From the NCBI RefSeq assembly GCF_024166365.1, contig NC_064831.1, forward strand, positions 26,216,768-26,280,767: a stretch of DNA of 64,000 nt. The letters run 5' to 3'. The notes below the pieces were generated by a model. That model saw only the letters and a list, made by a program, of their open reading frames with translations, was not told the DNA's origin and searched no databases. A program made the position numbers and the translations under genes. Positions within the stretch are counted from its first letter, which is position 1, and every line of letters begins with the position of its first letter. The DNA comes from Elephas maximus indicus (Eukaryota > Chordata > Mammalia > Proboscidea > Elephantidae). This document shows, in pieces, positions 24,079 through 64,000 of this stretch.

Positions 24079-24107
24079 AAAATGACAAACAAGTGGAGGA
24101 AAACAAT

Positions 24108-24245
24108 ATTAATAATCATTAAAGCTAATATTTACTGAATGCATGTTGCATGCTGGGCAACACTGAGTTGTTTACATGTGTTAACTAACATAATTCTTAA
24201 GAATCAACCTCCTTGGTAGGTGCTGATACTGGTCATAATAGAAAG
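24108..24245 (-). repeat. MIR SINE (unit 1 copy)
   Basis: 'taataatcattaaagctaat', 'gcatgttgcatgctgggcaa', 'tttacatgtgttaactaaca': antisense MIR. The same MIR, in the same place relative to the receptor, occurs at 45495 and 56885, so it predates the duplication. Confidence 0.8.
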
Positions 24246-27088
24246 GTAATAGTTAATCTTTGAATAAAGAGAGCAAAAATAAGTTTCTGATTGTCCTATT
24301 TAAATGAAGTACATCATCCCCACCCCACTCCTCCACCACCACTCTCTCCTTTTACTCCCTTTTCCAGTGTATGGGGCCCTATGGGAATACCTCCTTTTTC
24401 ATGCACTAGACAAGTTCTGTGTTTTAATGTTATCATAGCCATCCAAAGTAGTTTACTTTTTTTCAAGATATAATACACATATTTATCTCATAAAATATCA
24501 AGTAACAATAACTAAAACAAAATGATAAACTCTATTTAAAAATATTAGACCTAAATACACAGATCGATTTTCATTGAAGCTAAAGAAACCAAAGCTTCAC
24601 GTTATCGCATTTTTGCAGACCCCTATCAAGGCCACGTTTTGGTTTTGTATATGCATTTTTGTTTTCTCTTTCTTAAGAAAATCATCCCAAAATATACAAG
24701 TTTCATGCTCCTAAACATTCGATTTGACACTTTGCTGTTCAGACATATTTCCATCAGTGATTGAATGTAAGTCAAGTGTTGACCATCCCTGGGACTCAAT
24801 TCTTTATTTAAAATCTGAGATTGGGATTCCAAAAAGCCTCTGTTTCCTCCCAAAACAGAATTTCAACTATTGTTTGACTGTTGGAATTTCTTCCCCTATC
24901 CCCCGCACTGAGGAAGTTGTTAGAAGGTGTGTTACAGAAAAGTAAGAGAAAATATTTTAAAATAAAGAATAGCACATAGAACAGTTTGGAAAAAAGAAGT
25001 TAAAAGATATGTATTCATTTAATAGGAATTTATTGATGTGTCTTATATCCTAGTTCATGTGGGGTAATAAGTGTGTGTCTCTCCTCCGAACTCTAGACTG
25101 CATCACCTTGACTCTTAAGTTAACTTGCACTTGGTGTTTTCATACCTGAGATCAGGGATTGCCTTTATGTCATTCCACAGAATTGCGTAAAGGAACTGAA
25201 TGCTCAAAATTTAATTATTCCAGAGTAAATGAATCTTGTTTCAATAGCACAAAATTGACCATCATACCATAATGTAAATTTTTCTCTATGAACTTGGTCA
25301 CTATTAGCCTTTACTATTTACAACTTTTGTATTGAACCCGTAGACTTTCAGAAAGCTGAGTCTTCTGTTTTCATGATCATGTCAAATTCTCGAAATTATT
25401 TTAATGAAAAATTATTTAAATATTCAATACCTAACACCTGTTTGTTATAATTCCCTCAGTAAAATGAATATTTTGTACACATAGTAGCTGATTATTAATT
25501 AGTGGAGTTAAAATCTATACATATTATAAAGGTAAAATAGAATTAAGTAGTATATTTTAAACTCAATCAGTTAAGAGCAGTTGTCTGGTTTTTTTCTAAC
25601 AAATATATTTTGAGCCTTGACCTTGAAATCTTTTTTTTTTTTTTTTTGCATTTAGGCACCAGCTCTAATATAGTATCACCTGCAATGTACACGATGTGTT
25701 TAATTATGGAGTAGAGACCAAGCTTTCCCAAAAGGTCTCTGGAAAACAAAATGTCAGGTTCCACCATGATAAGGCAGTCAATCCATTTCCTTTGAGAGTT
25801 CGAAAGTCTTACATAAGGTTGAGAAAATCAATTCATACATTTGAATCTTATTTTCTACCGAAATTTTTGATGCTGAATGATTGTAGGCTTCTTGCCAGAA
25901 TCAAAAACCAACCAATCATCAAACAAAAAAACAATATTACAACTCATAGTGTGTCAATATTTCCTAAAATTTGTTTCAAATTAGAGATTAAAAAATGTTT
26001 ATATTTATTTTTTAATGTATTTCTGCCTCTCTGCAGAAGTGCCACATTAAATAGATTGATTTTCCAGACTATATGCGGTTCTTCTCATGTGACTTTGATA
26101 CATATCATCAAGAAAAAAATAAAATTTACTTAAAAAAATTACTAAAGAAGGAATTCCTATGATACTCCAAGTGGCCTGGTCAGGAATCCTTCTTCCAACA
26201 AAACTTTCAGATTCATCCTTTGCTCCTTGTTTAACTTCAAGGGGGAAAAAAAAAATCCTAGAAGAATGAAATATCTCTCTATACAAGAGGCTATATATAT
26301 TGATTGAGGTGAATTTTAAATTATTTTATAAAATGTAAAAAATCTATACAGCTGCACATCTAATGAAAAGAATATTCTTTTCAGGGAGTATCTTAAAATT
26401 TAAAGATGTGGCCTACTGGAGACACAAGATCTCCTTCACAATAACCATTATTTGGTTATCAAATAGCTGTTTAGCCACTAATTATTATGAATGAAATCAG
26501 CAGAAATTATGCTCCCTTGAAGAATTTATTATAACTTATGTCAAAAAGATCAATATGCAACTGATCTCAGGCATATTATTTAAAGGAATGTGTTTTATTT
26601 GATAAATTATGTATACTGAGTTGTATTATTTTTCCTGCATGCCCATTTTCTTAATTTGGGCTTTTCCTGGGTTGGATAGATTATACAGATCTTATATGAA
26701 TGATTTCCACAAAACAAATATCAAGGTATGCATCTGAGATTTATTTTGCCTTATATTGAATTTGAATATTCTCAGGGTTAAAATAAAAATGCAGCCAGCT
26801 GGTCATCTTGGCTCAATGAGATAGGGCCGTAGTTTGATAGTCCAGCGCATTTCTACCTGCAGCTGCATGACCCCAAAGAATCACTTTTATTCTTATCACA
26901 GTAAGGAACAAGTTTTTTTTTTTTTAATCTTTATTTTAACCTTAACGTATTACATTATGTTCAGCATACAGTCATAGTCAACAATAACTTTGAATAGCAA
27001 AAGTTTGTAAGAAGTGTTAAATATTTTGTACATATGGTGAGAAATTTATGCAGCTATATTGAAGTATTTTATAAATTATACTGCTCCA
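24246..27088. other. Unit 1 non-coding body
   Basis: AT-rich sequence homologous to 45641-48230 and 57051-59950. The open frames here (e.g. 145 codons at 25696-26133 and 73 codons at 24724-24945) are not conserved as frames in the other two units, arguing against coding. Includes T runs at 25630-25647 and 26912-26924. Confidence 0.65.
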
Positions 27089-27098
27089 TAGTAATGCT

Positions 27099-27260
27099 GG
27101 AAACCCTGGTGGCATAATGGTTAGGAGCTAGCTACTAACCAAAAGGTCAGCGGTTCAAATCCACCAGGAGCTCCTTGGAAATGCTTCGGGGCATTTTTAC
27201 TCTGTCCTGCAGGGTCACTATGAGTCAAATGGACTCAACAGCAACGGGTTTGGTTTTTTT
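27099..27260 (+). repeat. AfroSINE, unit 1 only
   Basis: Forward SINE ('ggaaaccctggtggcataat', 'gtcagcggttcaaatccacc', 'cagggtcactatgagtcaaa', T-rich end). A perfect 10-base target duplication, tagtaatgct, flanks it at 27089-27098 and 27267-27276. Absent from units 2 and 3, so inserted after the split of unit 1. Confidence 0.96.
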
Positions 27261-27771
27261 GGTCTGTAGTAATGCTAATTATTAATGCTTCCAGTTTTGA
27301 AACTTTATTTTATTATTCCTTGATAAAATTAGATAACATAATTTTCATAGACACAGCTTTAGGTTCTACACTTTACTTCCCATCTCTTGAAATAAGTTAT
27401 ACAATATCTTTAATTAAAAATAAAGATCTTTAATAAAAGCAGAGCTCAATATTCAAGTGAAACAGGAGAGCAACAATGACAAAATATGTGTGGATGATGA
27501 TAAGAACCAGAAAAAATGATATTATGATGGGAATACCTATGAATTAAATTGTTTATTTAATAAATTTACTTAGAAAGTGATGCATGACTCTCAGTTTATG
27601 GAACTAATAATATTAAAAAATATTAAACTAGTACACAAATCTCCAGGGTCAATATAAATGTTAATATTGCCTTCTCTCTCTCTGTCATAGGTTCTGGGAT
27701 TGGTTTAAAACACACTTTAAGTAGGTGTTATTTTAAGTTGATTACCTCTCATTGAAAGTCTTATATAACAC

Positions 27772-28668
27772 TTTTTTTCTTTAATTGTGCTTTAGGTAAA
27801 AGTTTACAGCTCAAGTTAGTTTCTCATACAAAAATTTATACACATATTGTTTTATGACCCTAGCTGCTATCCCTATAATGTGACAGCACATTTCTCCTTT
27901 CCACCCCGGATTTCCTGTGTCCATTCAACCAGCTCCTATCCCTTTCTGCCTTCTCATCTGGTCTCTGGACAGGAACTTCCCATTTATAAAAAAAAAAAAA
28001 GTCTCGTGTATTTACTTGAAGTAAGATGCGCACTTTTCACGGGTATCATTTTATGTCTTATAGTCCAATCTATTCTTTGTCTGAAGAGTTGGCTTCAGAA
28101 TGGTTATAGTTCTGGCTTAGCAGAGAGTCCGGGCGCCATGTCTTCTGGGGTTCCTCCAGTCTCAGTCAGAGCACTGAATTCTGGTCTTTTTACTAGAATT
28201 TGAGTTCTGCACCACACTTTTCTTCTGCTCTCTTGGGGAATCTCTGTTGTGTTCCCTGGCAGGGCAGTCATTGGTGGTAGCTGGGCACCATCTAGCTCTT
28301 CTTGTCTCGGGCTGATGGAGTCTAAGGTTTATATGGCCCCTTTTGTCTCTTGGGCTAATATTTTCCTTGTGTCTTTGGTGTTCTTCATTCTTCTTTGCCA
28401 CAGTTGGTTGAGACCAAGTGATGCATCTTAGATGGCCACTTGCTAGTTTTAAGACCCCAGACACCACTCACCAAAGCCGGATGCAGAACATTTTCTCAAT
28501 AAAATTTGTTATACCAATTGACCTAGATGTTCCCTGAAACCATGGTCCCTAGACCCCCACCCCTGCTGCACAGTTCCTCAAAGTGTTTGGTTGTGTTCAG
28601 GAAACTTCTTAGTTTTTAGTTTAGTCCAGTGATGCTGACTTCCCCTGTATGGTGAGATATCCTTCCTA
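27772..28668 (-). mobile_element. L1 3' UTR, minus strand
   Basis: Reads in reverse through an L1 3' UTR like that at 41940-42725: 'tttaattgtgctttaggtaa' at the tail, 'cagtcattggtggtagctgg', 'gagaccaagtgatgcatctt', 'ccgatgtcc'-like end near 28668. Moderately diverged. Not present at this place in units 2 and 3. Confidence 0.88.
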
Positions 28669-29170
28669 GCACTTTTAAAAGGTAGTAAAACTACCTATTG
28701 GTCAATACAGTTCCATTAAAGCTCACTATATTTCTTTTATTTTACTATCATTGGAAGCTCTCATTTGCAATTTTATCTAACTCAAAAAAATACTTGATGT
28801 TGAGGAGGGATTCAGTGGGTAGAGGTTTCTTTAATTTATGGAAAAGAGATTCACGTTGTCTTTTAGGCACTTCTGAACTTACACACTCATTTTAGCCCCT
28901 TTCTTTGATCTAGCAGGTGAAATATTTTATATTTATAATGCTTTAAAGGTGATATGGCCTACGACTGGTTTTTCCAACTTTATGGAGAGGTTTTTGAAAC
29001 ATTTACAGTTGATAGTTCTTACCAGAAGGATTAGTTTTTTGAATCAGGGGTAGTAGAATATCGTCTTAGAGAGCTTCTGACCTGCCTACCAAAAGCTCTA
29101 AGAATGTTACCCTTATTGAAAAGAAATTAAAAGAATGATAAATATATTGCTTTAAAGCTCACAGATATTT

Positions 29171-29215
29171 AAAAAAAAAAAGTTGCTGTCAAGTGGATTC
29201 CAACTCACAGTGATC
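29171..29215 (-). repeat. AfroSINE 3' fragment
   Basis: Short piece after an A run: 'agttgctgtcaagtggattc', 'caactcacagtgatcatat', followed by a TA-rich simple repeat. Confidence 0.75.
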
Positions 29216-29465
29216 ATATGTATATACATATATATATGATATAGATATTTAAAGTACATATAAATAATGACAGAAATTGGTGGGAGAAAAATGATTAAGA
29301 TATTTGATGATCAATAACAAGTCAGGGATAAGAGGAATTAGCCTAGTAGCCACAGGTGCTCGGCAAACTGGCTATGTACAGATTCTGATTAAGCCTAACA
29401 CATAGACGTCCTATTCTTAAAAAACTATTGTACTAAAATAATTTGTATAACAATTTAGGAAATAA

Positions 29466-29664
29466 GAGTAGCTTGTTGTTTTTGTTGTTGTATGCCATCA
29501 AGTCAATTCTGACTCCTAGCGACCCTACAGGACAGAGTTGAACTGCCCCATAAGATTTCCAAGGCTGTTAGGGAAGCTGACTGCCACACTCTCTCCCAGG
29601 GATCAGCTGGTGGTTACCTTTCATTTAGCAGCCTAGTGCTTAATCACTATACCACCAGGGCTCC
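29466..29664 (-). repeat. AfroSINE, reverse copy
   Basis: 'tgttgtatgccatcaagtca', 'tcctagcgaccctacaggac', 'gaactgccccataagatttc', 'gactgccacactctctccca', 'ccaccagggctcctt'. Near complete. Confidence 0.92.
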
Positions 29665-30512
29665 TTCAGCTCATGGCAACCTTATGTGAAAGACAACAAA
29701 ATGTCCACACCACAGTACTGCAAATTGATAGATGGGTGGTAGAAGAAGCATGACATACATCATGGATATTTTACTTTGCTGAGGAAAATGGTGTAAATGA
29801 TATGGGGGATGTATTCATTTCGGAAGCTTAGTGAAGCCTCAGCATGCTTAGAAGCCAAGCAAAATATCCAACCACACAATACCCTGACATCAGTGTGTTT
29901 CCATTTTTTGTACTATTTCTTTGTGTGTATGTGTTTCCAAGTACATAACATTTTGACTGTTATCATAAAAACATCTGTAATTATACATCACTTTTAATTA
30001 AATATATATAATTTCTATACACTAACAATATACTAAGCATTACTAATAATGAATGTTGTAAAAATCTCTCCATAAAGTTGAAGAACTCAACTTTAGCTCT
30101 TAATTCCTAAAAGGTATTTAAAATACAAACTATTTCATCTGCTAGGTTAATAAAAAGTGCTAAAATGAGTATATGTGTTCATATGTGTTCAGAAGCACCT
30201 AAAAGGCACCTTTAATCTTTTCACAAAAGAAATTTCAACTTAAAATGTCTAGTTATCATAATTACTCTTTGAATACACATACATTATCTCATTAGGTTGA
30301 TATTTTTTAATTTCCTTCTCCATTTCATCATTTGAAATTTTTCTTATGAATTTTACTATGATTGACATATTTTTTACAAAAGTAAGTTTCATATTTATAA
30401 CTATTTCACAAGAAAAATTCCCAATATGAAACCGTTAGTTCAAAGGATATGAAAGTTATCAAAGTTCATGATGAATGACTAGCAATTTTTTAAACGATGT
30501 ACCTTATGTTTA

Positions 30513-30717
30513 GAGTCTCTGAGTGGTACAAATGAGTAAGCACTTGACCACTAGCTGAAAGTCTGATGGTTTGAACCCACCCAGAGGCACCTGGGAGTAC
30601 AGGCCTGGCAATCTCCTTCTGAAAAGTCACAGCCCTGAAAACCCTATGGAACAGTTCTACTCTGCACACGTGGGGTTGCCATGAGTTGGAACTGATTGGA
30701 GGCAACTAACAACACGG
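30513..30717 (+). repeat. AfroSINE, long variant
   Basis: 'gagtctctgagtggtacaaa', 'aacccacccagaggcacctg', 'acaggcctggcaatctcctt', 'gttctactctgcacacgtgg', 'ggttgccatgagttggaact', ending 'aactaacaaca'. Unit 1 only. Confidence 0.9.
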
Positions 30718-32626
30718 TATGTCACCACACGTGTTAGTGCATATTTGGCTACATCGTTAACAATTTTTTTCTTGATAATTTAGTAAAGTGTTAATACATC
30801 ACTTTCATACCATGTATAGACTTATCATTTCCTCACATTAAAACTTCTGTTTCCTCTTTGATGTATCAACTATCTATCTTTTCCCTATGGGTTCAGTTGT
30901 CTTTTTTTTTTAATTTGGTAAATTATTTTTATATTTGAGATGTTTAATAACTATATTAATGCTCTAAGCTTTCCTTCAAGTTTTTGTTAAAATTTATAAT
31001 TTTTGCATACAATTTTTGCGGTGTAAACACTGGAAAAATCTGAATAATAGTTTACACGTGATAAAATGAGCATTCCAATAGTTTGGACACCCTTACCAGC
31101 ATTCCCATTTTTATTGTATTAAAACACATTTCTCTGCCCTATATATATTATCAATGATATATCTTCATGTAATAATGTATTATGTAATACAACTTCTACT
31201 AGGTGCAAAAGCTATATTATTTCATTCCTTTTTCTTGCTCATTTATCCCAGTATTTTATCTATTTTACTTTTATAATACTTTGTGTGTTATATTTTCTCC
31301 ACTTCACAGTCTTTCCAAATTTTTTCACTTTGCTTTTTAGCTTGACCTTTTATTACAAATTTTTATTAAAATAATTCATCATGGTCTGAAATATATAGCC
31401 TTGAAATTTAGGTTGGATTTGTATGAATTGGTTTAAAAAGAACAACAATATGACATTTATTTTGTCCATCCAGTTATATGCTATCTTCACATTTTATTTG
31501 ATATTTTACTATATTGTCAGTTTTTATTAAAATGATATTTAAATATTATGCTTAGTTATCAGTATTTATTATTAGTAATGTGAAAATATGATTAGCATAT
31601 TAAAATATAGTATATTGGAATGTTACCAGTTAGAATAATTAAAATTTATCCATTTGGTTTTTTGAATACTTTAGCAAGTTGAATAATTTTCATTGTTCAA
31701 AAATAATGTTTTCAGTAAAAAAAAAATTATAATCAGCTTTCTGTTTTATCTTTCCAGTGTTGCCATCATCATTTATATATGTGGTGCAGCTATGCTTTTT
31801 GGATTCTGCCACATTTCATGACAATATCAGTGGGAAATTGGAAAAAAAAGACTTTTTCATGCTTATATTTATATTGACATATTCATAATATCATCCAAGC
31901 CTTTTTTCAAACTTTTTAAGTTTCTACCCCTATTTACGTTTATTAAAATCCTTTCTCAAAGTTTATTAATGATTGTATGATTTCTCAATGTAATAGCCTG
32001 TTATCACTACATCTGTCTGTACCAGTTAAACACTTCACTTTACCTCATCCTCCCCACTCTTCTGAGTGAGTGGCCTTCTACATGGCAAAATATAAAAAAT
32101 CACTAAAAAGAATTTGAAGGAAAGACTTAGCCTGATTCACTTTTAGAGTTCCAGAAACTATCACTGTATTCGACCATAGTAAATGCACAGTAAATACTGG
32201 TAGCATTTAATATTGTTTCCTTTAAATTTACTAATTGTATTTAGAACAAGTGAACTGTAGATAGTGAGACTTTTATTTGCTCTGGAAATACATAAATGCC
32301 AGATTTTTTGTTGGAAAACAAAACAGAATTCATTTCAATTTGCTATCTTGGAATTAACCATCCTTCATATTCTTCTTCAGTCAAACTTTAATAAATGTTA
32401 ACATATATTTTAATGATTCATTCTCAAGCTCCCCTTAAGTCTGACATGTTAAAGTGCCTGTATTGGCATAATTCCATCTCTTCTTAAAGGAAGAAATAAA
32501 ACGTATTTTCATTTTGCTGTTTGTCAACATGGCCATTATTCAATAGACATAAATTCAACGTGTTGAAAGGGAGCAGAGATATTTACCTAAGGTGACTGAA
32601 GATTTTATTGTATTTAATAATTGTAT
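30718..32626. other. Unit 1 non-coding, upstream of the receptor
   Basis: Very AT-rich; alignable in blocks with unit 2 (for example 'aaaatgagcattccaata' at about 31064 and 49023, and 'ttgaaatttaggttg' at about 31402 and 50393) and near the receptor with both other units ('ttttaatgattcattctc' at 32408 and 61083). No gene. Confidence 0.65.
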
Positions 32627-32703: not shown

Positions 32704-33622
32704 ATGAAGACAGAAAATCACAGTTTTGGAGCAGAATTTATACTTCTTGTCCTTTTCAGTACGGCTGAATGAACACTGTTCTTTTTGTTGCCATCTCCAT
32801 CTTCTTCTCAGTGGCCCCGGTGGGGAATATCAAATGATCCATCTCATCAGATTGGATTCCTGACTCCACACTCCCATGTACTTCCTCCTCAGTCAGCTCT
32901 CCTTCATTGATATGACATACATGTCCACCACTGTACACAAAATGGCAGCAAACTTCCTGTCAAATAGGAAGACCATTATTTTTTCAGCTTGTGAGACTCA
33001 AACCTTTATGTTTTTGACCATTGATGGAACTGAAGCTCTTCTTCTTGGTTTCATGTCTTATGACAGATATGTAGCGATCTGTCACCCTTTACATTATCCT
33101 GTGCTCATGAGCAAGATGATCTGTTTGTCCATGGTCACATGTGCATGGGCCAGTAGTTCCATCAATGCTATAATACATACACTGTATGTATTTCAACTTC
33201 CATTCTGTAGATCTCAGATCATTAACCACTTTTTCTGTGAAGTTCCATCTCTAATACCTTTTGTGTGTCAGAACGCTTCCCAGTATGAGTATACCATCCT
33301 CTTTAGTGGCCTTATTATGCTGTTGCTACCGTCTGTGGGTGTTCTGGCTTCCTATGCCAAGATGCTTATTGTCGTGTACCAGATGAGCTCAGGTAAAGGG
33401 CAGTCAAAAGCCATCTTCATGTGTTCCTCACATCTGATTGTGGCAAGCCTATTTTATAGGACAGGTGTCTCCACCTATATGAGGCCACACTCCTTGTGTA
33501 ATTCTGAACAGGATAAAGTGGTGGCAGTATTTTACAGCATTATCATACCTCTACTGAACCCATTTATCTACAGTCTTAGGAACAAGGAGGTTATGGGGGT
33601 CGTGAAGAGACTGTTGGGATAA
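32704..33622 (+). pseudogene. Olfactory receptor family 2 pseudogene (unit 1)
   Basis: Seven-transmembrane odorant receptor, a GPCR of sensory-neuron cilia in its working form. It starts [15 protein letters not shown] like its sisters but loses frame after about 18 codons: one base is missing near 32757 and another near 32833 relative to the intact copy, and a TGA at 32767 follows the first. From [13 protein letters not shown] at 32876 the frame is open for 248 codons to the stop at 33620-33622, with [13 protein letters not shown], the three second-loop cysteines and [15 protein letters not shown] kept. KAISTC, a strong family motif, reads KAIFMC here. Only two lesions, so loss is not very old, but this is the most diverged of the three copies. 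A start at the internal ATG would lack TM1, so function is unlikely. Confidence 0.93.
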
Positions 33623-33727
33623 CAGAAAATGTGCCATTAGGAACTTCTGTTTGATTGAAACTGAACGTAAAATGCCTTGCCTAAGCAACTGTCTGGAGAG
33701 AAGTAAACCGTAAGAACTTTTTTTTTA

Positions 33728-34430
33728 AATAGTTCTATATGTATATATATGCACATACAAGTATAAGATTTACCAATTTAGCATTGTTCTTGTGCAAACA
33801 TCACTCAGAATAAATTCCAAATTTCCCATCACCATTAAAAAAAAAATTCTCTGCTTTTTAAACAATGGCTCCCCTTTCCCTCTCCCTCTTTTCTCTTGTA
33901 GCCACTAATAAACTTTGATCTCTAAACATTTGTCTATTCTTGTTATATCATATAAGTGAGATTACATAATTTTTGACAGTTCAGTGAGCATAAGGCTTCC
34001 AGGTTCGTAGATGTTATAGTATCAATCAGGACTTAATTATTTTTTTTACGGCTGAGTAGTAATCCATTGCATGTATATACAACATTTTGTTTATACATTC
34101 ATCTGTTGATGGACAATTAAGTCCTTTCCATCTTTTGGGTATAATGAACGTTGCTGCAATGAACATTACTTATATGTATGTCTGTTTACATTGCTGCTTT
34201 CAGGTCTCTTGGGTATATACCTAGAAGTGGAATTGCTATGTCTTATGGTGGTTCTATGTTTAACTTTCTGAGAAAATCCCAAATTGTTTTTCATAGCAGC
34301 TGCACCATTTTGAATTCTCACCAGCAATCGATAAGTGTTCTAATTTCTCCATATCCTCGCTGACATTTATTATTTTCCTAATTTTGCCATTGTATTTATA
34401 ATTCCTGAATATGTAATTCCTGACTGCTTT
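33728..34430 (-). mobile_element. Old L1 ORF2/3' end, minus strand
   Basis: Antisense of an older L1: 'catctgttgatggacaatta', 'tgctgcaatgaacattactt', 'gggtatatacctagaagtgg', 'aattgctatgtcttatggtg', 'tctcaccagcaatcgataag'. It replaces the L2 found downstream of the receptors in units 2 and 3. Confidence 0.85.
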
Positions 34431-34451
34431 TTTTTTTTCTTTTACTTTCAA

Positions 34452-34842
34452 CCTTCTTTAATGGCAAAATTAGGATATTTCCAGACAAGCAGAAATTAAG
34501 GGAATTTGTAAAAACCAGACCAAACTTACAAGAAATATTAAAAAGAGTCCTTCGAATAGAGAACCAAAAACATTAAACAACAATCTGAGATTTGGACGCA
34601 GGACAGGCCACCCAGGTACCAACCCAGATAAAGAATTTTTAAAATAAAACAAAGCAAAAAGTCTAAAAACAGTGAATCAAAGACATCAATATGTAAACGA
34701 TGACACTATCAAAACAAAAAAGAAGGAATAAACAGTGTAGTTATAGAACTTTCATATGGAGAGAAAGCCAAAGCGATATCAATAAATAAAAGACTGCTTT
34801 AAAAGTAGGAAGACAAAAGTAAATTTCAGGGTAACCACATAG
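34452..34842 (+). mobile_element. Older L1, ORF1 end and inter-ORF region
   Basis: Parallels 37530-37930 of the full-length L1: 'ggatatttccagacaagcag', 'ccaggtaccaacccagataa', 'actttcatatggagagaaag', 'cagggtaaccaca'. Truncated at both ends. Confidence 0.8.
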
Positions 34843-34843
34843 A

Positions 34844-34893
34844 GGAGACCCGGTGGTGCATTGGTTAAGTGCCCGGCTGCTAACCAAAAGGTC
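34844..34893 (+). repeat. AfroSINE 5' head only
   Basis: 'ggagacccggtggtgcattg', 'gttaagtgcccggctgctaa', 'ccaaaaggtca', then L1 polymerase sequence. The SINE body is lost, apparently with the intervening L1 endonuclease region. Confidence 0.85.
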
Positions 34894-49816: not shown

Positions 49817-49827
49817 CTGTACTGATT

Positions 49828-52366: not shown

Positions 52367-52384
52367 TTTGTTTTCTTTTGAAGG
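52367..52384 (+). promoter_or_regulatory. Putative splice acceptor, receptor exon (unit 2)
   Basis: 'tttgttttcttttgaag' ends in AG at 52382-52383, 61 bases before the ATG. Positionally conserved with units 1 and 3. Confidence 0.5.
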
Positions 52385-52444
52385 ATATTCAATATTGTTT
52401 ACATTGAATTTTCAGATATTGTCTGCTTTATTTATATTTAAGCC

Positions 52445-53374
52445 ATGAAGACAGAAAATCAAACTTTTGGAGCAGAATTTATACTTCTTGGCTTTTTCCA
52501 ATATGGCCAAATGAACACCGTCCTCTTTGTTACCATTGCGGGCCTCTTCTCTTTTCTCAGTGACTTTGATGGGGAATATCATACTGATCCACCTCATCCG
52601 ATTGGGCACTCCACTCCACACTCCCATGTACTTCCTCCTCAGTCAGCTCTCCTTCATTGACATGATGTACATCTCCACCACGGTACCCAAGATGGCAGCA
52701 AACTTCCTGTCAAATAGTAAGACCATTACTTTTTTAGGTTGTAAGATTCAAACCTTTGTGGTTTTGACCCTTGGTGGAACTGAAGCTCTTCTTCTTGGTG
52801 TCATGTCTTATGATAGATACGTAGCGATCTGTCACCCTTTACATTATCCTGTGCTCATGAGCAAGACGATCTGTTTGTCCATGGTCACATGTGCATGGGC
52901 CAGTAGTTCTATCAATGCTTTAATACATACACTGCATGTATTTCAACTTCCATTCTGTACATCTCAGATCATTAACCACTTTTTCTGTGAAGTTCCATCT
53001 CTAATGCCTTTGGTGTGTCAGGATACCTCCCAGTATGAGTATACTGTCCTCTTTAGTGGTCTTATCATTCTGCTACTTCCATTCATGGCCATTCTGGCTT
53101 CCTATGCCTGGGTGCTTATTGTGGTTTACCCCTGAGCTCAAGTAAAGGGCAGACAAAAGCCATCTCCACGTGTTCCTCTCACCTGATTGTGACAAGCCTA
53201 TTCTATGGCACTGCTCTCTCTACCTATACAAGACCACACACCTTGCATTACCCTAAGGAAGATAAAGTGGTGGCGGTGTTTTACAGTATCATTACACCTC
53301 TTCTGAACCCATTTATCTACAGTCTGAGGAATAAGGAGGTCATGGGGGCTATGAAAAGAGTTTTGGGAAAATAG
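52445..53374 (+). pseudogene. Olfactory receptor family 2 pseudogene (unit 2)
   Basis: Very similar to the intact unit 3 gene. ATG at 52445 gives [20 protein letters not shown]. About 30 codons in, a 7-base excess (cttctcttttctcagtg where unit 3 has atcttctcagtg, about 52540-52560) shifts the frame. The receptor then reads open in a second frame from about 52560 to 53135 ([44 protein letters not shown]). Near 53130 one base is missing ('tttacccctgagc' against 'tgtaccagatgag'), and the end is open in the first frame to the TAG at 53372-53374 ([20 protein letters not shown]). No other stops, so inactivation looks recent. It ends at GK-stop, seven residues before unit 3. The working product would be an odorant-sensing GPCR. 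Confidence 0.94.
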
Positions 53375-53784
53375 AAATTCGTACAGAAAATATAACTTTA
53401 GGAACCCTTCATAGTTTGAGACTAAACAACATGATTTGATTAGCCTACTGTCTAGAGAGATGTAAGCTCCAAGAAATGTTTACAAAATAAATAATTAGAC
53501 AAATGCCTTCATTTCTCCTCTTTTCAGAAATAACTAAGTCATCACTATTGGAACTGGATTGATTTACAATGTATAAGCAAGAGAATGGTTGCCGTTATCT
53601 ACATTGTTTATCTTCTAAAGCAGTAGATTTAGTACCTATAAACACAATACTGCCATGTCATAGCAAATATTTTTTCTTCTTTAATTTGCTGAAATAAAAT
53701 GCATAGAAAATATAATTAATTGCAAAATGCATAATATCTAGATAATATATATGATGACCAAACTGCAGTATAGAGCAAATTTCA
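53375..53784. other. Receptor 3' flank (unit 2)
   Basis: Homologous to 62987-63374. Possible polyadenylation signals: 'aaataaat' near 53486 and 'aataaaat' near 53692. No gene. Confidence 0.5.
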
Positions 53785-54610
53785 TATATCCACTCATTCT
53801 TTCATTCATTGAACAAAAGTTTTAATGCTTTAACTTTTTATATGACGATATTATAGGCATGGTGATATGGGATTGAGCAATATAAAACTGACATAAATGT
53901 CTGCTCTCTTAAAGTTTACATTTCATTGTGAGGAGAAAGACAATATATAAAATTAATGTATAAATTGTACCGTATATCAAAAAGTATTAATTGCCATGAA
54001 GAGAAACTAAGTGCAAAATTGGAATAGGGAAACTAAAAGATGTTTGCAATTATAAGTAAAATAGAGAAGGGAGAAACAAGAATGTGACAATTTGTCAGAC
54101 TAAAAGGAGTTAAGGAAGAGAATCAAGTGGACATATGAGGAAGAGTGTTCTGGAAAGAGCAAAGAGCAAGTGAGAACTTCCTGTGATGGGAACATGCTGT
54201 GCATAGTTACAAAAGATCAAGGAGTAAATTGGTGAGACTTAGGCAATAGGTAGATGTAATGGGACCAGAACATGTAGTATAAATTAGATCAGTATGAGGA
54301 TTCTGGATTTTAACCCAAAATGCTGGGCAACCATTGCTGAGTTGTGAGTATAGAATTGATGTGAACACAAGAAGGCCATTGCATTAGCCCAGATGTGACA
54401 AAACATGGCCTTGGATTGAAGTGATATTAGTGGAGGAGCAAAAACTGGCCAGATTCAGGAGACTGGGAGAAAGCAGATATTTGAGTTTTGTGGGCACATT
54501 GGGATATGAAATGCTACGAAATAAGAGGCATTCAGAATTGGGCTAAGACTTGGACTAAATAATTGGAAGTATGGAGTTGTCATCATTATAGTTTGGGGGA
54601 AGCCACAGGT
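53785..54610 (-). repeat. L2 LINE (unit 2 copy)
   Basis: Antisense L2 over about 800 bases, in order: 'ttctttcattcattgaacaa', 'ggaaagagcaaagagcaagt', 'gatgggaacatgctgtgcat', 'agaacatgtagtataaatta', 'gattctggattttaacccaa', 'ccttggattgaagtgatatt', 'ggaagtatggagttgtcatc'. Same element at 63375-64000 in unit 3. Confidence 0.9.
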
Positions 54611-54759
54611 GGAGCATTTTCATCTTTCAGCATCTCTTGTTCTAGTTTCATGTTGACCTCTTGGCCCCACAAACACAGTCTTTATTCTGACTTCTATCAC
54701 CATTAAATAGAAGCTCTTATTTCTCATCACCATTGGGTAGAAACTTTGGAATCAGAAAA

Positions 54760-55115
54760 AAAACTTCTCTTTGATATTTGGCTTCTTTTAGTCAACATAT
54801 TTAAAAGATTTAACCATATTTTTGTGTGTCTCTGTAACTCCATTGTTTGTATTACAAAGCTGCATTCCATTGTATGGCTCCTGAGCAATTGTTTCCATTC
54901 TGACGCAGGAAATGTTTGGCTATCATGAATAAAACTGCCATAAAACTTCCTGCATAAATGCTTTTTGAGAATATATTAACTGAATTATCTTGTATATACA
55001 TCAAAGATTGAAATTGCTTGGTCATATTTTAAGTACATGTATAGCTATGAATGTTATTGCAATGTGGGTTTAATCATTTGTATTCCATTCGGCAATACAA
55101 GAGAAATTCTTAGTA
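54760..55115 (-). mobile_element. Old L1 fragment, minus strand
   Basis: 'cttcttttagtcaacatatt', 'gcattccattgtatggctcc', 'gaataaaactgccataaaac', 'attgaaattgcttggtcata': antisense of the L1 ORF2 3' region, well diverged. Confidence 0.75.
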
Positions 55116-55289
55116 ATTGTTGATAATAAATAATGCAGTGATTTGCTAAATATAAAATTGGATATAAGCCATGACAATAAAATTCAACCAGTGCTCAAAC
55201 AGTGCATGAATAATGGTATTGGAAGAAAGTATATATTTTCTGTGAAGTATTTAAGATAATCACTGACGAGATTGGTTTTAATCCATTGT

Positions 55290-56500
55290 CAATAATTTTA
55301 ATAATTATGGTTTGTAATTCATAATGTTCAGTTTTCCACAACAGCAACAACAAAATATTAGGCATGCAAATAATCAGGAGCACATGGCTCATTCACAGGA
55401 AAAAATAAATAAATTTGAAACAATCCCTGAGTCAACTCAGATATTGGAATTACTAGAGAAATAATATAAATAAACTGTATTAAAAATATGTTCAAGGTAC
55501 TAATGGATACCATGTACAAAGGACTAAAGGTAACCAGTGAAATAATGTCTTAACAAATAGAGACTGCCAATAAGGATATAGAAATTATAAAAAGATACCA
55601 GATAGGAATTAACAATAGTCTTTCTCAAACTCTTCCAAAAAATAGAAGGTAACTCATTCTAGAATGACATTATCACCCTGATACCAAAGCAAAAAAAAAA
55701 AAAAAATCACAATATACCTTACGCATATGGAAGCAAATCTTCTATAAAATACTAACAAACCCAATTCTGCAGCAAATTGCAACAAAACACTAGCAAACCA
55801 AATATGGCAGCATATTGGAAGGACTGTACACCATGACCCAGTGAAACTTATCCCACAAATGCAGGAGTGGTTAAACATAAATATCAATTAATTAAGAGAA
55901 TGAACAAAAATGATTATATTAATTGATGCAGAAAAATCATTTGACACACTCCAATACCCTTTCATAATAAAATCACCCAACAAACTAGAAATGTAAGGAA
56001 ACTGCTTGTATCTGATTAAGGACAGTTATGAAATGCCCATGGCTAAAATCACACACATTGGTGAAAAACTAAAAGTTTTTCAGGAACAAAACAAGGATAC
56101 TTGATTTCACAACTCTTACTATTTGACGGCACTGGCTGGCTTTTATTCCATATTATTACATAAACACTAGCCAGAGAGAGAGGGGTTAGGAAAAAAAAAA
56201 AACAGGAAATGGCATTCAAATTTGAAAAGAAGTAAAATTGTTCCTATTTAAATGACATGATACAGAATATCCTAAGAAATACTCTGGGCTCAAACATAAC
56301 AATGATTGGGAGGATGGCACAGGACAGAGCAGTGTTTCCTTCTGTTGTACACAGGAGTCGCTATGAGTCAGAACAAACTTGACATCACCTAACAGCAACA
56401 ACAAAGAATACACACACACACACAACAGACCAACAAAAACAAAAATAAACTATTATAGTTAATATACAAATCCAACAAAACTGCAGGATGTCAGATGAAC
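55290..56500 (+). mobile_element. Old L1 (unit 3 copy), internally deleted
   Basis: First part resembles old L1 ORF1 ('gaaaaaataaataaatttga', 'ctaaaggtaaccagtgaaat', 'gtcttaacaaatagagactg'), then at about 55590 it passes into ORF2 ('agtctttctcaaactcttcc', 'cattatcaccctgataccaa', 'cttatcccacaaatgcagga'). From about 55572 it is the same element as 43795-44640. An RTE piece is inserted at 56284. Confidence 0.82.
56284..56395 (+). mobile_element. RTE 3' end inserted in unit 3
   Basis: 'gggctcaaacataacaatga', 'ttgggaggatggcacaggac', 'ggagtcgctatgagtcagaa', 'catcacctaacagcaacaac': the last 110 or so bases of RTE, landed in the old L1. Related flanks aagaaatac and aaagaatac suggest a target duplication. 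Unit 2 has no insertion here, so it postdates the unit 2/3 split. Confidence 0.88.
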
Positions 56501-56884
56501 AGGTTTTGACTAGAGCTCTGGAGAACCAAACCTGATATCTCTGCTTATTTGTTTATTCTTTCATTCATTTATCTCTATTTATTTATTGATTACTCTCTTA
56601 TGCTTCAGATTTCTTCAATACCAAACTTTAGGTCTTTGAATCTTATCAGAGAGAGTGACTGTATGTACAAGGCTTATTTTATGGAATTCTCCCTGTAGAT
56701 AGTTTGTTCTAGTTTTGTTTATTTTTCTCTTGAAACTTTGTAGAACCATGTCACACTGGGCTGGGGAAAGCTTTTAGAAGGATTTGTGTCCACATTTGAG
56801 CAAAGCAGTGGAGGAGATGCTTCCATCCTTGAATCTATCTTAGCTTATGTAAAATAATAATCCAAAAAGGCAGTAAAAATAGCA

Positions 56885-57050
56885 TCATCATTAATAATCA
56901 TCATTTAAGCTAATATTTATTGAGAGCTTGCAGCATGCTGGACAACATTGTAAGTTGTTTGCATGTGTTTACTAATTTAATTTTTAATAAATAATATTGG
57001 TGGTAGATGCTACTATTAGATTAGATAATCTATGAATCAAGAGAGCAAGT
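56885..57050 (-). repeat. MIR SINE (unit 3 copy)
   Basis: 'ttaataatcatcatttaagc', 'gagcttgcagcatgctggac', 'ttgcatgtgtttactaattt', 'ggtggtagatgctactatta': orthologous to 24108 and 45495. Confidence 0.8.
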
Positions 57051-60000
57051 AATACATTCCTGCTTCTGCAATTCAGACAGGGTGAATCACCCCCATCCTA
57101 CCTTCCACCATCATGCTCCACTTTTACTCCCTGATTTAATATATGGGCCCCTGAGAGATATCTCTCTTTTTATGCCACAGGAAGAGTTCTAGGTTTTCAT
57201 GTTCCCATACCCATCCAAAGTAGCTGACGACTATCTGTGTATAATACACTTAAATATTTTTCTCACGCAATATCAAGTGATAATAATAATAAAACAATAA
57301 CAACAAGCACCACTTAAAGGTATCAAACCTAACTTCAGAGGTAGATTTTCACTGAAACATAAGAAACTTGAACTGCACATCCTCTCACCTGTGCAGGCCT
57401 CTTCCAAAGTCATATCAATTTTATATTTGTATTTTTGCTCTCTTGTTCTTAAAGAAAATGCCAGAAACTGTACAAGTTTCACAGTATTCAAAACTTACAA
57501 ATGTCACTTCAATATTCTAGAAATCCTTCCACAAGTGACTGAATGTGAGGCAAATGTTGACTATTCATAGGACTCAATTGTTCAGTAAAAATCTGAGATT
57601 AGGGTTCCAAAACACCTGTGTTTCATCCTAAAACTGACTCAGTGATTGTTTGGCCCCTGAAGTTTTCTCTGTAAGGTGATTTAGAGAATAATGAGACAAA
57701 ATGTTTCAAATTAAGGAATAATTATTATAAATAATGATTTATGAATTATAAAATAACATATATATTATAATTGGAGAAAAATGAAGATAAGATCTATGAC
57801 GTGACTTACATCTCTGTCTGTACATGAGAGAATAAACCTGTGTATTTTCTTCCCAAAATCTAACCCACATCAACTTTCTTCTTAAGTTATTGTACTTTTC
57901 TTTTCCCATTCTTGAGCACAGCAGCTATTTCATGTCATCCCATATAGAATCGGGTAAGGGAATTGAATGGTTAAAATTTCAACTCACTTCAATTTTTCCA
58001 GATTAAATACATCTCATCGAAATAGAACAACATTATTGAGCACCGTGCCAAAATCTAAATTCTACTCTACACGTGGGCACTTTAACCCTGAGGGATTACA
58101 GCATTTGTATTTGATCTGTGGACTTTCAGAAATCAGAGTCCCTTATTTCCATTCAAGCCAACCTTCCTATTTTGGGAATGAAATTATTGCAAAATTTAGC
58201 ACGTTTAATAATATCACCTATATTATATAACCCCTCAGTATTTCATGCATATTTTGTATAGAAAAAAAATTAAACTATATATTAGCTGATTACTAACTAT
58301 ATGGAGTCAAAATCTACGTACATATTTTAAAGGTAAAATAGTTAACTTTAAAAAAATTTTTTAAAGCAATCAGCTAATATCAATTATTTGATTTTTTTTT
58401 TTCACTTGAACAAATACATTTTGAGGCTTGACCCTTGGTTCATTTCCCTCCCTCCCCCCAGGAATGCAGACACCAAGACTAATAAAATATCACTTGTAAT
58501 TTGTACAATGTGCTTAATCATGGACTAGAGGTCTAGTTTTCCCAGAAGGTCTCTGAGAAACAAAATATGAATTCCACCCTGATTAGGCAGCCAGCCTGTG
58601 TCCCTCGGGAGGTTTAAATTCTTATATAAGGACGAGAAAATGAGTTTGAACATTCGATTCTTTTTTCTACTAAGTTTTTTCATGGTAAATGATTGAAGAC
58701 TTATTTGCTAAGGCAAAAAAAAAAAAAAAGCAATCCTGCAAGCTCATAGAATGGTAACACTTCCTAAAATGTGTTTCAAATTAGAGATTTCACAGTTTTG
58801 GATTTCTTTGTGAATTTATTTTTCTGTCATCCTGTAGAAGTGTCAAGTAGCTCGATTTTCCTAATATATGCAGTTTTGTCTGTGACTTTTTAATATATAT
58901 GACAAACAAATAATATAATTTAACTTAAAATTTTTTGAAAGACTTGCTGTGTCTCTCTAATGCTGTGCCCAAGTGGGGTGACAGGAAAATCGTCTATGTA
59001 ATTTTGCAGATCTGTTTCCCAACTCCCTGCTTAATGATTTATTTCAAAAAAAGTCTTCTAGGAGATTGAAACATTATCTCTATACAAAAAACAATATATC
59101 TCAATTAAAATAATTTTTTCAAGTATTTTTATATATGTAAAATAATCTATATGTCTAAATATCTAATGAAAAAGAATATGCTTTTCAGCACAGTGGCTTA
59201 TTTTTCAGTTTTAAAAACGTGGTCTGCTGGAGGTAAAGCAGTCTTGTTCGTAATAACAACCATTCAGATTTCAAATAGCTCTTTTGGGCCATTAATTACT
59301 TTGAATTTAACCTAAAATATTATAATACCTTGAATACTTTGCTACAATTCGTGTCAAAAAGATCAATATATGACTAATCTCAGGGACACTATTTAAAGGA
59401 ATGTGTTTTATTTGGTAAATTATGTAGAGTGAATAGTATTTTTCTTGGATGCCCATTTCCTTTGATTTGGGTGATTTCTGGGCTGGCTAGATTATCCACT
59501 TTACATTTGGATGATCTCTGCAAAAATTGAATATCCAGGTATGTTATCTGAGATTGATTTGACCATATATTGATTTTAAATTTTCTCAGGCCAACAATCA
59601 CAAAAGAGCAAGGTGAGAGACGTGTCTTCGTAAAGCGAGAAAAGGGTGGGGTTTGAAGGTCCAGTGCAACCCCTACTGGGCAGCATGGCCCTGGAGGCAT
59701 CACTTGTAGTCTTGATTGGAGTAGAAAAAAATGTTTCTTTCTTATTTTTGCCTTGCCACTTTGCATTATGCTCAGGGCATAGTCATATTCAACAATATTA
59801 TTGGAATGGTGAAAGATTGTAAACTATTTCAAGCAATACAAATTCGTCGTGAGAATCTTTGCAGTTGAATTAAAATATTTTGTAAATTGTTTTATTTCAA
59901 GTGAAATATATATGCATATATGCATTTTTTTATGCATACATGCATATGCATATATATTTCTATATATAATGTGTAACTGTCTAGTTTTCATAACTGATTT

Positions 60001-60670
60001 TGAATACATGCACATTATCTCACCAAGCTGATATTTTTTAGTTCCCTTATCTGTTTTTATCATGTTCTTATCATTCCAAATTTCTTCTGTAAAACATATT
60101 AAGTTTACTATACTTCTACAAATTTTTTGTACAATGAAAATTCCTAACATGATATTGTTAGTTCAAAAAAAAAAAGTATGCCTTAGTTTATATGAACTTG
60201 GCTGACTATAGACAATGTAAAAAATAAAATTTCTACTAGATTAAATTTGCATATGAATTTATAAGCTTTATTTGCAATTCATGAGTAGGAAGTTTCAGAC
60301 AATAGCTTCCCAATTCATGAATACCAAATATAGTTTATGAGCTCATATACAAATTAATCTTGTAGAAATTTCATTTTCAACAGATTTCTGGTGATGGGGA
60401 AGGGATTAATGGGACATTTTGAACTAGGTTAAGCCCAGCAGGCAAGTCCTAACTGGTTAATTCACATATTTCGGCTTCTGAGGTCAGGCATTTACTGAAC
60501 GAAGACTTACATTTGGGTTTGCTCATGTGACTGCATCTTAGACCAAGTATCAAGTATGGTCAAATTAACAGTAAATATAACTGATGATGAGTCATTGAAT
60601 TTTATATGCCAGAATTGTATTAGTATTTGCATGTGTATAATCAACAATTGTTATTGTCAGTTAATTTTGT
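57051..60670. other. Unit 3 non-coding body
   Basis: AT-rich, alignable with unit 2 at 45641-48448 and, after the deletion junction near 60170, with 51007 onward. The 125-codon minus frame at 59389-59766 overlaps the equivalent of a 66-codon frame in unit 2 (47849-48049); the frame is not preserved, so it is not a gene. Confidence 0.7.
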
Positions 60671-60790
60671 GCTTTGCTGCTAACCAAAAGGTTGGCAGTT
60701 TGAGTCTACCAGCCACTCCTTGGAAACACTGTGGGGCAATTCTACTCTGTCCTATAGGGTCTCTGTGAATCGGAATGAACTCAACAAGGT
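60671..60790 (+). repeat. AfroSINE, unit 3 only
   Basis: 5'-truncated forward copy: 'tttgctgctaaccaaaaggt', 'tttgagtctaccagccactc', 'actctgtcctatagggtctc', 'tgaatcggaatgaactcaac'. Unit 2 reads through at about 51510. Confidence 0.93.
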
Positions 60791-61121
60791 GTTTTATATT
60801 AAAGTTGGCTAGTTTTTAATTGAAAATATTTTCTATTTCTTAACGTTGTTCTGCAATAAGAATTATCCAAAACTTTTGAATTAAAAAAAAAAGCCATCAG
60901 TAGTCTTTTGATTTCATATCCCAATTGAGGAGCAAGTGATAAACTTTTACTAATTGCCACTTCTTCCAAGTGCAGTTTAAATGTAAATTTCCCCAATTAA
61001 TATAACAGGACTAAGCAAAATTAAAAATGCCATTCTTGACATGCTTCTTGAGTTAAATTTAGATGAATAATTGTTAACTTATATTTTAATGATTCATTCT
61101 CCGACCATCCCTTAGGTCTGG

Positions 61122-61275
61122 CATATAGATAGACAGACAGACAAATAGATAGATGATAGATGGTGATGATGATAGGTAGATAGATAGATAGATGATAGAT
61201 ATAGATAGATAGATAGATGATAGATGATAGATAGAGGATAGATGTAGATAGATGATAGATAGATGATAGATTTTT
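61122..61275. repeat. (GATA)n microsatellite, unit 3 only
   Basis: About 150 bases of imperfect GATA/GACA repeats with a few GATGATAGAT interruptions, ending in a T run. Unit 2 has no such tract at the matching place (about 51852). Confidence 0.96.
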
Positions 61276-61721
61276 TTTTTTTTGGAGGGCTTTGTCAATG
61301 AATTCCCATGTACACTTACAGATGTTATCTATATAACCACCAATTCATTTAGAAGAGCTAAAATATTCCTGACCCACAAATGTTAATATAATTTTTATTA
61401 CAATCTATAGCCAATACAAATTCAAAATTGAAAAATGGAGTCAAGAAACTTTTTTTTAAAAGAATATTATACCATGTTTAACCAACAGTGCAATTCTAAA
61501 CTATATATATGAAGGAATTGAGTGAAAGATTTTTTCACAACACGTGAACATGTCTCTAGTCTATCATCATGAAGATATTTACAAGGGGAATAATAACTCA
61601 TGTTGGCAAATCATCTAAATGTTTATCCCCATATTATATTTTTATTGTGATCAATTTTAAAGAAACATTATTTTAATTTTATTTTTCAAAATGCCCATTG
61701 CTCAATAGACACAGATTCAGT

Positions 61722-61897
61722 GCATGAAAACCCCAAACCAAACCCCTTACTGTTGAATTGATTCTGACTCATAGTTCCCTATAAGACAGGGAAGAACTGC
61801 CCCATAGAGTTTCCACGGAGTGCCTGGTGGATTCAAACTGCTGACCTTTTGGTTAGTAGCCATAGCACTTAACTACTACACTACCAGGGTTTCCTAT
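61722..61897 (-). repeat. AfroSINE just upstream of the intact receptor
   Basis: Reverse copy: 'aaaaccccaaaccaaacccc', 'ttgattctgactcatagttc', 'gaactgccccatagagtttc', 'gcctggtggattcaaactgc', 'actaccagggtttcc'. Units 1 and 2 lack it; it ends about 85 bases before the putative splice acceptor. Confidence 0.94.
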
Positions 61898-61963
61898 ATA
61901 AAAACAGGGAGAGACATAGTCACCTAAGCTGATTAAAGGGAATTCTACTGCATTTAATAATCA

Positions 61964-61982
61964 TTTTGTTTTCTCTCAAAGG
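61964..61982 (+). promoter_or_regulatory. Putative splice acceptor, receptor exon (unit 3)
   Basis: 'ttttgttttctctcaaag' ends in AG at 61980-61981, 60 bases before the ATG. Conserved in all three units; typical of olfactory receptor coding exons. An ATG at 61989 inside the predicted 5' UTR opens an out-of-frame reading frame that overlaps the receptor start and runs to 62250. Confidence 0.55.
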
Positions 61983-62041
61983 TCAATCAATGTTGTTACA
62001 TGGAATTTTCAGATATGGTCTGCTTTGTTTTGATTTAAGCC

Positions 62042-62986
62042 ATGAAGACAGAAAATCAAACTTTTGGAGCAGAGTTTATACTTCTTGGCCTTTTCCAATA
62101 TGGCCAAATGAACAAGGTACTCTTTGTTGCCATTGTTATCATCTTCTCAGTGGCTTCGATGGGAAATATCATACTGATCCACCTCATCCGATTGGACACT
62201 CCACTCCACACTCCCATGTACTTCCTCCTCAGTCAGCTCTCCTTCATTGACATGATGTACATCTCCACCACGGTACCCAAGATGGCAGCAAACTTCCTGT
62301 CAAATAGTAAGACCATTACTTTTTTAGGTTGTGAGATTCAAAGCTTTCTGTTTTTGACTCTCGGTGGAACTGAAGCTCTTCTTCTTGGTTTCATGTCTTA
62401 TGATAGATACATAGCAATCTGTCACCCTTTACGTTATCCTGTGCTCATGAGCAAGACGATCTGTTTGTCCATGGTCACATGTGCATGGGCCAGTAGTTCT
62501 ATCAATGCTTTAATACATACACTGTATGTATTTCAACTTCCATTCTGCACATCTCGGATCGTTAATCACTTCTTCTGTGAAGTTCCATCTCTATTGCCTT
62601 TGGTGTGTCAGGATACCTCCCAGTATGAGTATACTGTCCTCCTTAGTGGCCTTATCATTCTGCTACTACCATTCATAGCCATTTTGGCTTCTTATGCCCG
62701 AGTGCTTATTGCGGTGTACCAGATGAGTTCAGGTAAAGGGCAGACAAAAGCCATCTCCACGTGTTCCTGTCATCTGATTGTGGCAAGCCTATTCTATGGG
62801 ACTACTCTCTCCACCTATACAAGGCCACATTCCTTGCATTACCCTGAGGAAGATAAAGTGGTGGCGGTGTTTTACAGTATCATTACACCTCTTCTGAACC
62901 CATTTATCTACAGTCTGAGAAATAAGGAGGTCATGGGGGCCATGAGAAGAGTGCTGGGAAAATGGATATTTGTACAGAAAATATAA
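62042..62986 (+). CDS. Olfactory receptor, family 2 (OR2L-like), intact
   Basis: 314-residue odorant receptor, a rhodopsin-like GPCR expected in olfactory-neuron cilia, coupled to the G-protein alpha subunit Golf. Single coding exon, normal family length. Seen: N-glycosylation site N5-Q-T7; GN at 41-42 in TM1; [16 protein letters not shown] at 55-70 (first inner loop to TM2); C97 at the start of TM3; [13 protein letters not shown] at 118-130; cysteines 169, 179 and 189 in the second outer loop; SYARVLIAV at 217-225; [10 protein letters not shown] at 236-245 (usual form KAxSTCSSH, one change); [15 protein letters not shown] at 283-297. ATG chosen because it starts the canonical N-terminus and is shared by all copies. 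The C-terminus reads through the TAG used in unit 2, adding WIFVQKI. By eye closest to OR2L/OR2AJ-type receptors; subfamily unsure. Ligand unknown. Confidence 0.96.
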
Positions 62987-63374
62987 CTTTAGGAACCCCT
63001 TATAGTTTGAGACTGAACAACATGATTTGATTAGCCTACTGTCTAGAGATATGTAAGCTCAAAGAAATGTTTACAAAATAAATAAATGTAGCAATGCCTT
63101 GGTTTCTCCACTTTTCAGAAATAACTAAAGCATTGTTATTGTAACTGGGTGGATTTGCTGTGTAAAAGCAAGAGAATGGTTGCCATTATCAACTTTATCT
63201 TCTAAAGCAATAGATTTAATCCCTGTCAACACAATGCTCCTATGTCATAACAAATTTTTAGTACCTTTTTTAATATTCTGAAATAAAATGCACATGAAAT
63301 ATAATTTACCATATAATAGATAATATCAGGAAAATACATATAATGTCCAAACTATAATATAGAGCAAAATGCAT
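62987..63374. other. Receptor 3' flank (unit 3)
   Basis: Homologous to 53375-53784. Candidate polyadenylation signals: 'aaataaataaat' near 63077 and 'aaataaaat' near 63281. No further gene. Confidence 0.5.
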
Positions 63375-64000
63375 ACAACCACTTATTTATTTATTCATTC
63401 ATTGAACAAGGGCTTTAATGCTTTAACTCTGTATGTTTTTTACCAAAAAGTGCTAATCACCATGAAGAAGAACTAAGTGGAAAATTGGAATCGGGAAAAC
63501 AAAGGATATTTGCAATGTTAAGTCAAACAGAGAAGGGAGAACCAAGAATGCAACATTTGTCAAAAACTAAAAGGAGTCGAGGATGAGAGACAAGTGGATA
63601 TCTGTGGATGAATGTTCTGGGAAGAGCAAAGAACAAGTGAGAATTCCCTGAGGTGGGGACATGCCCAGCATAGTCACAGAAGATCAAGGAGTAAATTGAT
63701 GAGACACAGAAAATAGGTATATGTTTTAGAGCTGGGTCTTACAGTGTAAATTAGATCGATGTGAGGATTGTGTCTTTGAACCTAAAACAATGGGCTACCG
63801 TTGCAGAGTTGTGGTAGAGAATTGATGTGGGCAGAAGAAAGCCATTGCAGTAGTCCAGCTGTGATAAGATATTACCTTGGACCAAGGTGATATTAGTGGA
63901 GAGGCAAAGACTGGGCAGACTCAGGAGACTGGCAGAAAGCAGACATTTGAGTTTTGTGGACACATGGGATATGAAATACTATGAAATAAGAAGCTTTCAG
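63375..64000 (-). repeat. L2 LINE (unit 3 copy), runs off the window
   Basis: Same antisense L2 as 53785-54610: 'ttattcattcattgaacaag', 'ggaagagcaaagaacaagtg', 'cattgcagtagtccagctgt', 'ttggaccaaggtgatattag'. About 80 bases present in unit 2 after 'gctttaact' are missing here. Confidence 0.9.

Follow-up and report, generated by a model that had tools for sequence, protein, structure and literature searches.

A 64,000-nucleotide stretch of the genome of Elephas maximus indicus (NCBI RefSeq assembly GCF_024166365.1, contig NC_064831.1, positions 26,216,768 to 26,280,767 of the forward strand), referred to here as the window and numbered from its first base, contains three olfactory receptor loci, one intact and two dead, each embedded in a copy of the same segment. 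The three copies, designated U1, U2 and U3, lie on the same (+) strand and, when the window is compared with itself by BLAST, are collinear with homology that extends far beyond the receptor exon. The alignable part of U1, collinear with both other units, begins at 24104 and ends at 33722; that of U2 spans 43780–54535, while U3, collinear with U2, extends from 55568 to 64000 and continues past the window end. The start codons of neighbouring units are 19.7 and 9.6 kb apart.

Receptor genes of the three units

The open reading frame (ORF) in U3 (62042–62986, +) is intact and encodes 314 amino acids. Pfam domain 7tm_4 covers residues 33–305 (E = 7.7e-42), and the ORF, judged from a domain that spans most of the predicted protein, is an olfactory receptor. 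The best match among solved chains is the consensus receptor consOR2 (PDB 8uy0, chain A; residues 4–307, E = 7.6e-114), ahead of consOR5, the next (E = 7.5e-90), consOR1, consOR6 and consOR4. The U3 receptor thus appears closest to the OR2 family as judged among solved chains, a placement at the level of the family; consOR2 itself is a designed consensus. The protein may be akin to human receptors of the OR2L/OR2T type.

The remnants in U1 and U2 also match 7tm_4. In the U1 pseudogene (32704–33625, +), codons 19 and 45 have each lost one base, codons 22 and 54 are stops, and the end is shortened, with a stop near codon 307 beside a 12-base gap. The U2 pseudogene (52445–53392, +) carries a 7-base insertion near codons 32–34 and lacks a single base at codon 227; its codon 308 is a stop that would trim only the final seven residues. 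One intact and two dead receptors had been reported in an initial annotation of this DNA, and the frameshifts in U1 and U2 agree with that count. No fourth receptor was evident in the window, as a tblastn search with the U3 protein returned these three loci followed by matches with E values of 0.17 or worse. Direct comparison of the lesions shows that U1 and U2 have no frameshift in common, and the two gene deaths therefore look independent.

Homology beyond the receptor exon

Chaining of the self-BLAST matches yielded nine blocks for U2–U3, six for U1–U3 and ten for U1–U2. Among the noncoding blocks, 45672–48456 in U2 matches 57383–60175 in U3 with 78.6% identity (E = 0), 24104–27010 in U1 matches 56889–59822 in U3 with 67.1% (E = 0), and 24639–27077 in U1 matches 45704–48213 in U2 with 65.8% (E = 5e-169), gaps being included in these identities. 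Outside the coding sequence (CDS), and within blocks with E values up to 1e-3, the aligned columns number 6334 for U2–U3 (82.8% identity), 3462 for U1–U3 (73.2%) and 4011 for U1–U2 (73.3%). It should be emphasized that 69 of the 4011 columns derive from two different copies of a short interspersed element (SINE) matching each other (29496 / 48470). This U1–U2 block (29496–29564) and the U1–U3 block at 30606–30691 (E = 0.056), where a SINE is again paired with a different SINE, were discounted as evidence, as were two U1–U2 blocks that are close to chance (at 31140, E = 0.028, and at 34134, E = 0.21). The units span 10756 bases in U2 and 9619 in U1, the remainder comprising private insertion, loss or unalignable sequence. 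Collinearity is thus observed directly, and the earlier claim that one olfactory receptor segment occurs as three tandem units on one strand is borne out by thousands of noncoding columns, the self-alignment displaying continuous off-diagonal homology outside the receptor exons. A 25-base run at 59390–59414 is identical in U1, U2 and U3, the sole run of at least 18 bases of this kind found upstream of the CDS.

The units also have landmarks in common. A MIR-like element on the minus strand occupies the head of U1 (24104–24277), U2 (45494–45672) and U3 (56889–57055), with z scores for the MIR consensus, relative to 200 shuffles, of 6.4, 11.0 and 10.0, respectively. When the window was scanned in 300-base steps with this consensus, the top scores fell at the unit heads (104.5 in U2, 94 in U3 and 76 in U1), the next separate place, at 3151, scoring 69. 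The U1 copy is weak on its own, yet it aligns with both the others, and the MIR that had been proposed as a landmark of every unit is therefore retained. U2 and U3 additionally share, on the + strand, an old L1-ORF2-like fragment upstream (43780–44712 and 55568–56612, mutually aligned; 43797–44489 matches an L1 in the window at 39530–40271, E = 1e-52) and a stretch downstream (53975–54535 / 63441–64000, 80.5% identity). Both had been noted previously, and the alignment supports their presence in the two units; the designation of the downstream stretch as L2 is that of the initial annotation. A self-complementary element of ~155 bases lies at the same place in U2 (51052–51207) and U3 (60221–60377), and no counterpart was found in U1 31754–32357.

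A splice-acceptor-like AG had likewise been listed for all three units, and this holds at one of two positions. Right before the ATG, U1, U2 and U3 all read TTTAAGCC, and the AG that directly precedes the start codon (TTTAAGCCATG) is the sole candidate acceptor they have in common. The AG at ATG-34, in contrast, is found in U2 and U3 (TTTTCAG) and has been lost from U1, which reads TTTTTGG. With respect to a promoter, O/E-like sites are scattered, and none was seen by eye at matching places across the units.

Branching order and private changes

Kimura distances in the upstream body are 0.19 for U2–U3 and 0.35 for U1 to either unit, while the 801 two-state informative columns of the body divide into 472 that join U2 with U3, 190 that join U1 with U3 and 139 that join U1 with U2. 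The branching order is read directly from these comparisons, which support U2 and U3 as sisters and as the younger pair, consistent with the closer resemblance of the two units that had been noticed before alignment. With an assumed, uncalibrated substitution rate (2.2e-9 per site and year), the two splits would date to about 45 and 80 million years ago.

It had been proposed that six insertions, each present in one unit only, order the events at the locus, and three of the six do so with respect to the U2/U3 split. U1 and U2 both show an empty site for a SINE restricted to U3 (61731–61897, −; listed as 61722), which is therefore younger than that split. Two further insertions seen only in U3, a SINE at 60668–60793 (+; listed as 60671) and a repeat tail at 56285–56410 (+; listed as 56284), have empty sites in U2, U1 being unalignable there, and thus followed the same split, provided that they were gained rather than lost. 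The remaining three are not ordered in this way. A segment of ~2.5 kb in U2 (48456–51006, +) is missing from U3; as U1 keeps parts of it (30448–30511, 30732–31120 and 31186–31753), it was U3 that lost the segment. The SINE at 48458–48603 (−) in U2, which is absent from U1, and the U2 stretch at 49080–50164 (+), which contains SINE-like pieces and is absent from U1 bar one weak 37-base match, both lie in the segment that U3 lost. The places concerned are alignable in U1, and of the insertions listed at 48458 and 49516–50160 it is therefore known only that they postdate the U1 split. The SINE in U1 (27099–27256, +), which is flanked by TAGTAATGCT at 27089–27098 and 27267–27276, sits within a 3.2-kb stretch (27078–30242) that has no counterpart in U2 or U3. 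An additional U1 insertion, outside the original list, occupies 30512–30731 (+), contains a SINE-like match (30605–30700) and corresponds to a near-empty site of 11 bases in U2. Two smaller features were also apparent: in U2, 49515–50065 consists of nested inverted SINE-like pieces with self-complementary matches at 49515–49817 and 49811–50065, and in U3 an ATAG microsatellite (61125–61271) is confined to that unit, the U2 alignment running straight across it.

The ~140-base SINE profile has 32 matches in the window, on both strands and with E values up to 1e-3, of which about ten are near full length; some of the weaker matches are tails of a ~450-base repeat. The family resembles AfroSINE, which makes an elephant or afrotherian origin of the window plausible. 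The divergence of ten seed copies from the consensus they yield is 6–17% (6–15% without CG, TG and CA sites), roughly matching or exceeding the U2/U3 branch (~9%). Taken at face value, this divergence conflicts slightly with private copies that postdate the U2/U3 split. SINE age was rejected as a clock, being too coarse for the ordering of events.

Downstream of U1 the sequence becomes L1-like from 33822, and U1 33723–34056 displays no homology to the stretches that follow the U2 and U3 exons (z −1.5 and −0.9; 30 shuffles). The U2 end (54536–55567) has a weak collinear likeness to U1 33723–35000 (z 3.8 over ~1 kb, 54567–55563 / 33759–34762; 30 shuffles), the U1 side of which is L1-like (33822–34376, 34463–34846 and 34893–35297), with no L1 match on the U2 side at E = 1e-3. 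The likeness may reflect an old L1 in both places or what is left of the end of the original unit, and was not counted in the units. A long L1-like element (35340–42734, +) lies between U1 and U2 and explains most of the extra spacing between them; its 5' part resembles 3318–4367, and it contains ORFs at 36646–37074, 38319–38846 and 39697–41283 with reverse-transcriptase-like text.

Exon conservation, gene loss and competing explanations

The receptor exon is the best-conserved block of the units. Divergence between U2 and U3 is 0.067 in the CDS, 0.136 in the ~240 bases past the stop and 0.18–0.24 in most flanking pieces. The ratio of nonsynonymous to synonymous divergence (dN/dS) is 0.33 for U2–U3, 0.27 for U1–U3 and 0.32 for U1–U2, a direct record of selection on the exon through most of its history, and conservation of the exon over its flanks is thus attributed mainly to purifying selection. 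Given such constraint, the U1 and U2 genes both appear to have died late. Indeed, the U2 branch has accumulated ~16 nonsynonymous changes, as has that of the intact U3, compared with ~66–68 if unconstrained. According to a rough clock (one-sided 95% bounds, assuming a dN/dS of 0.25–0.15 while alive), the dead part of the branch is at most 15–25% for U2 and 18–28% for U1 with its stem; as the same sum for intact U3 is 16–26%, U2 is indistinguishable from a living gene by the nonsynonymous measure. Coding insertions and deletions (indels), for which events and column counts were drawn from two separate alignments, number three in U1 where 17.6 would be expected without constraint (P = 2e-5) and none in U3 where 9.2 would be expected.

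We consider it highly probable that at least two tandem duplications acted on a segment of roughly 10–12 kb, which comprised one OR2-like receptor gene with the noncoding DNA upstream of it, the first duplication separating U1 from the common ancestor of the other two units and a later one separating U2 from U3, and that the units then decayed separately. Unequal crossing-over would be the route of duplication, and a promoter and 5' exon may have travelled with every unit. Once separated, the units would have acquired insertions independently, a deletion would have removed ~2.5 kb from U3, and the receptors of U1 and U2 would have died separately and late. Within the window this leaves a single intact receptor, that of U3, whose product is predicted to be made in olfactory neurons and to signal as a G-protein-coupled receptor. 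The alignments, distances, lesions and dN/dS values all back the original view of the locus as a case of receptor-gene birth and death.

Several observations weigh against this account. The duplication breakpoints were not found: on the left, U1 and U2 each adjoin repeats, and U3 leaves the window. At U1 (24104) the neighbour is repeat-like sequence with a SINE at 23319–23457 and what appears to be RTE-like sequence, and at U2 it is the end of a ~450-base repeat (43318–43781; other copies at 1778–2247 and 5452–5917). The sequence to the left of U1 (20500–24103) displays no homology above 30 shuffles to the head of U3 (z 0.8) or that of U2 (z −1.5), and neither does U1 31754–32357 to the matching stretches of U2 and U3 (z −0.1 and −1.1; 30 shuffles). 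With repeats at these edges, the lack in U1 of sequence shared by U2 and U3 is not proof. The order of duplication is derived from three copies in one genome, through their distances and their site patterns, and the indel clock is only marginal for U2, in which two coding indels were seen and 6.1 (P = 0.056) or 7.7 (P = 0.018) would be expected. Finally, synonymous divergence (dS) between U2 and U3 is 0.136, below that of most flanks (0.18–0.24), which selection alone does not predict.

It could be argued that gene conversion between receptor exons (U1–U2, perhaps U2–U3), on top of duplication, has kept the central part of the exon similar, such that exon divergence understates the age of the units, a proposal we regard as rather unlikely. 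The low U2–U3 dS would speak in its favour. U1 and U2 differ synonymously at 3 of 90 eligible codons within codons 84–196 and at 34 of 139 elsewhere, and a scan for U1–U2 segments, whose best segment was codons 82–197, was equalled in 2 of 2000 permutations and, in a coarser version, in 0 of 300. Three-way sites within codons 84–196 join U1 with U2 12 times and U1 with U3 four times, compared with 17 and 21 in the rest of the CDS. These site patterns, however, gave p values of 0.16 and 0.20, the scans of the other pairs were not significant (179 of 2000 permutations for U2–U3 and 313 of 2000 for U1–U3), and U1 and U3 also differ little in the same codons (8 of 89 versus 35 of 144), as a regionally low rate would give. 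The segment entered in the Fisher tests had been preselected from an earlier scan, and thus the scan permutations are the sole valid test. The idea that conversion chiefly explains the conserved exon was rejected, as dS for the two U1 pairs (0.37 and 0.31) is like that of the flanks (0.35) and dN/dS is ~0.3. Copying of a ~340-base stretch of the exon (codons ~82–197) between U1 and U2 after the U2/U3 split is a possibility, albeit a doubtful one; if it occurred, the dead genes contain a patch more recent than the units that carry them, and such patching may have prolonged the life of the copies.

The pre-eminence of the exon among conserved blocks might also be counted in favour of exons that alone are related, the receptors having been assembled by independent insertion or by chance. 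This is scarcely credible, as thousands of noncoding columns are collinear and the MIR occupies corresponding positions in all three units, results of the self-alignment that already refute it. Tandem receptor arrays are difficult to assemble, and the copies could in principle be haplotypes falsely duplicated in the assembly; a noncoding divergence of 17–27% and the insertions specific to each unit, which far exceed allelic differences, make such an artefact exceedingly improbable.

Tandem duplication followed by separate decay thus remains the preferred explanation, and the window is a small, readable record of two duplications and one deletion, of insertions private to single units and of two genes lost separately and late. 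It provides a few orderable events for one receptor cluster and no new principle; the locus is an instance of ordinary olfactory receptor birth-and-death evolution, which is already known. For receptor genes, the review PMC1995454 describes clusters dense in retrotransposons, duplication in tandem, pseudogenes and gene conversion. The features of mammalian olfactory receptor clusters, a single coding exon of ~1 kb, tandem neighbours on the same strand, a retrotransposon-rich setting and a mixture of intact and dead copies, are all found in the window, whereas the average spacing given in the review is ~25 kb compared with the 19.7 and 9.6 kb seen here. Two dead genes and one intact fit the African elephant repertoire, in which pseudogenes (2462) outnumber intact receptor genes (1841) according to PMC6916060. 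The window, a small, old and well-marked example of the mammalian clusters, differs from them in nothing of principle.

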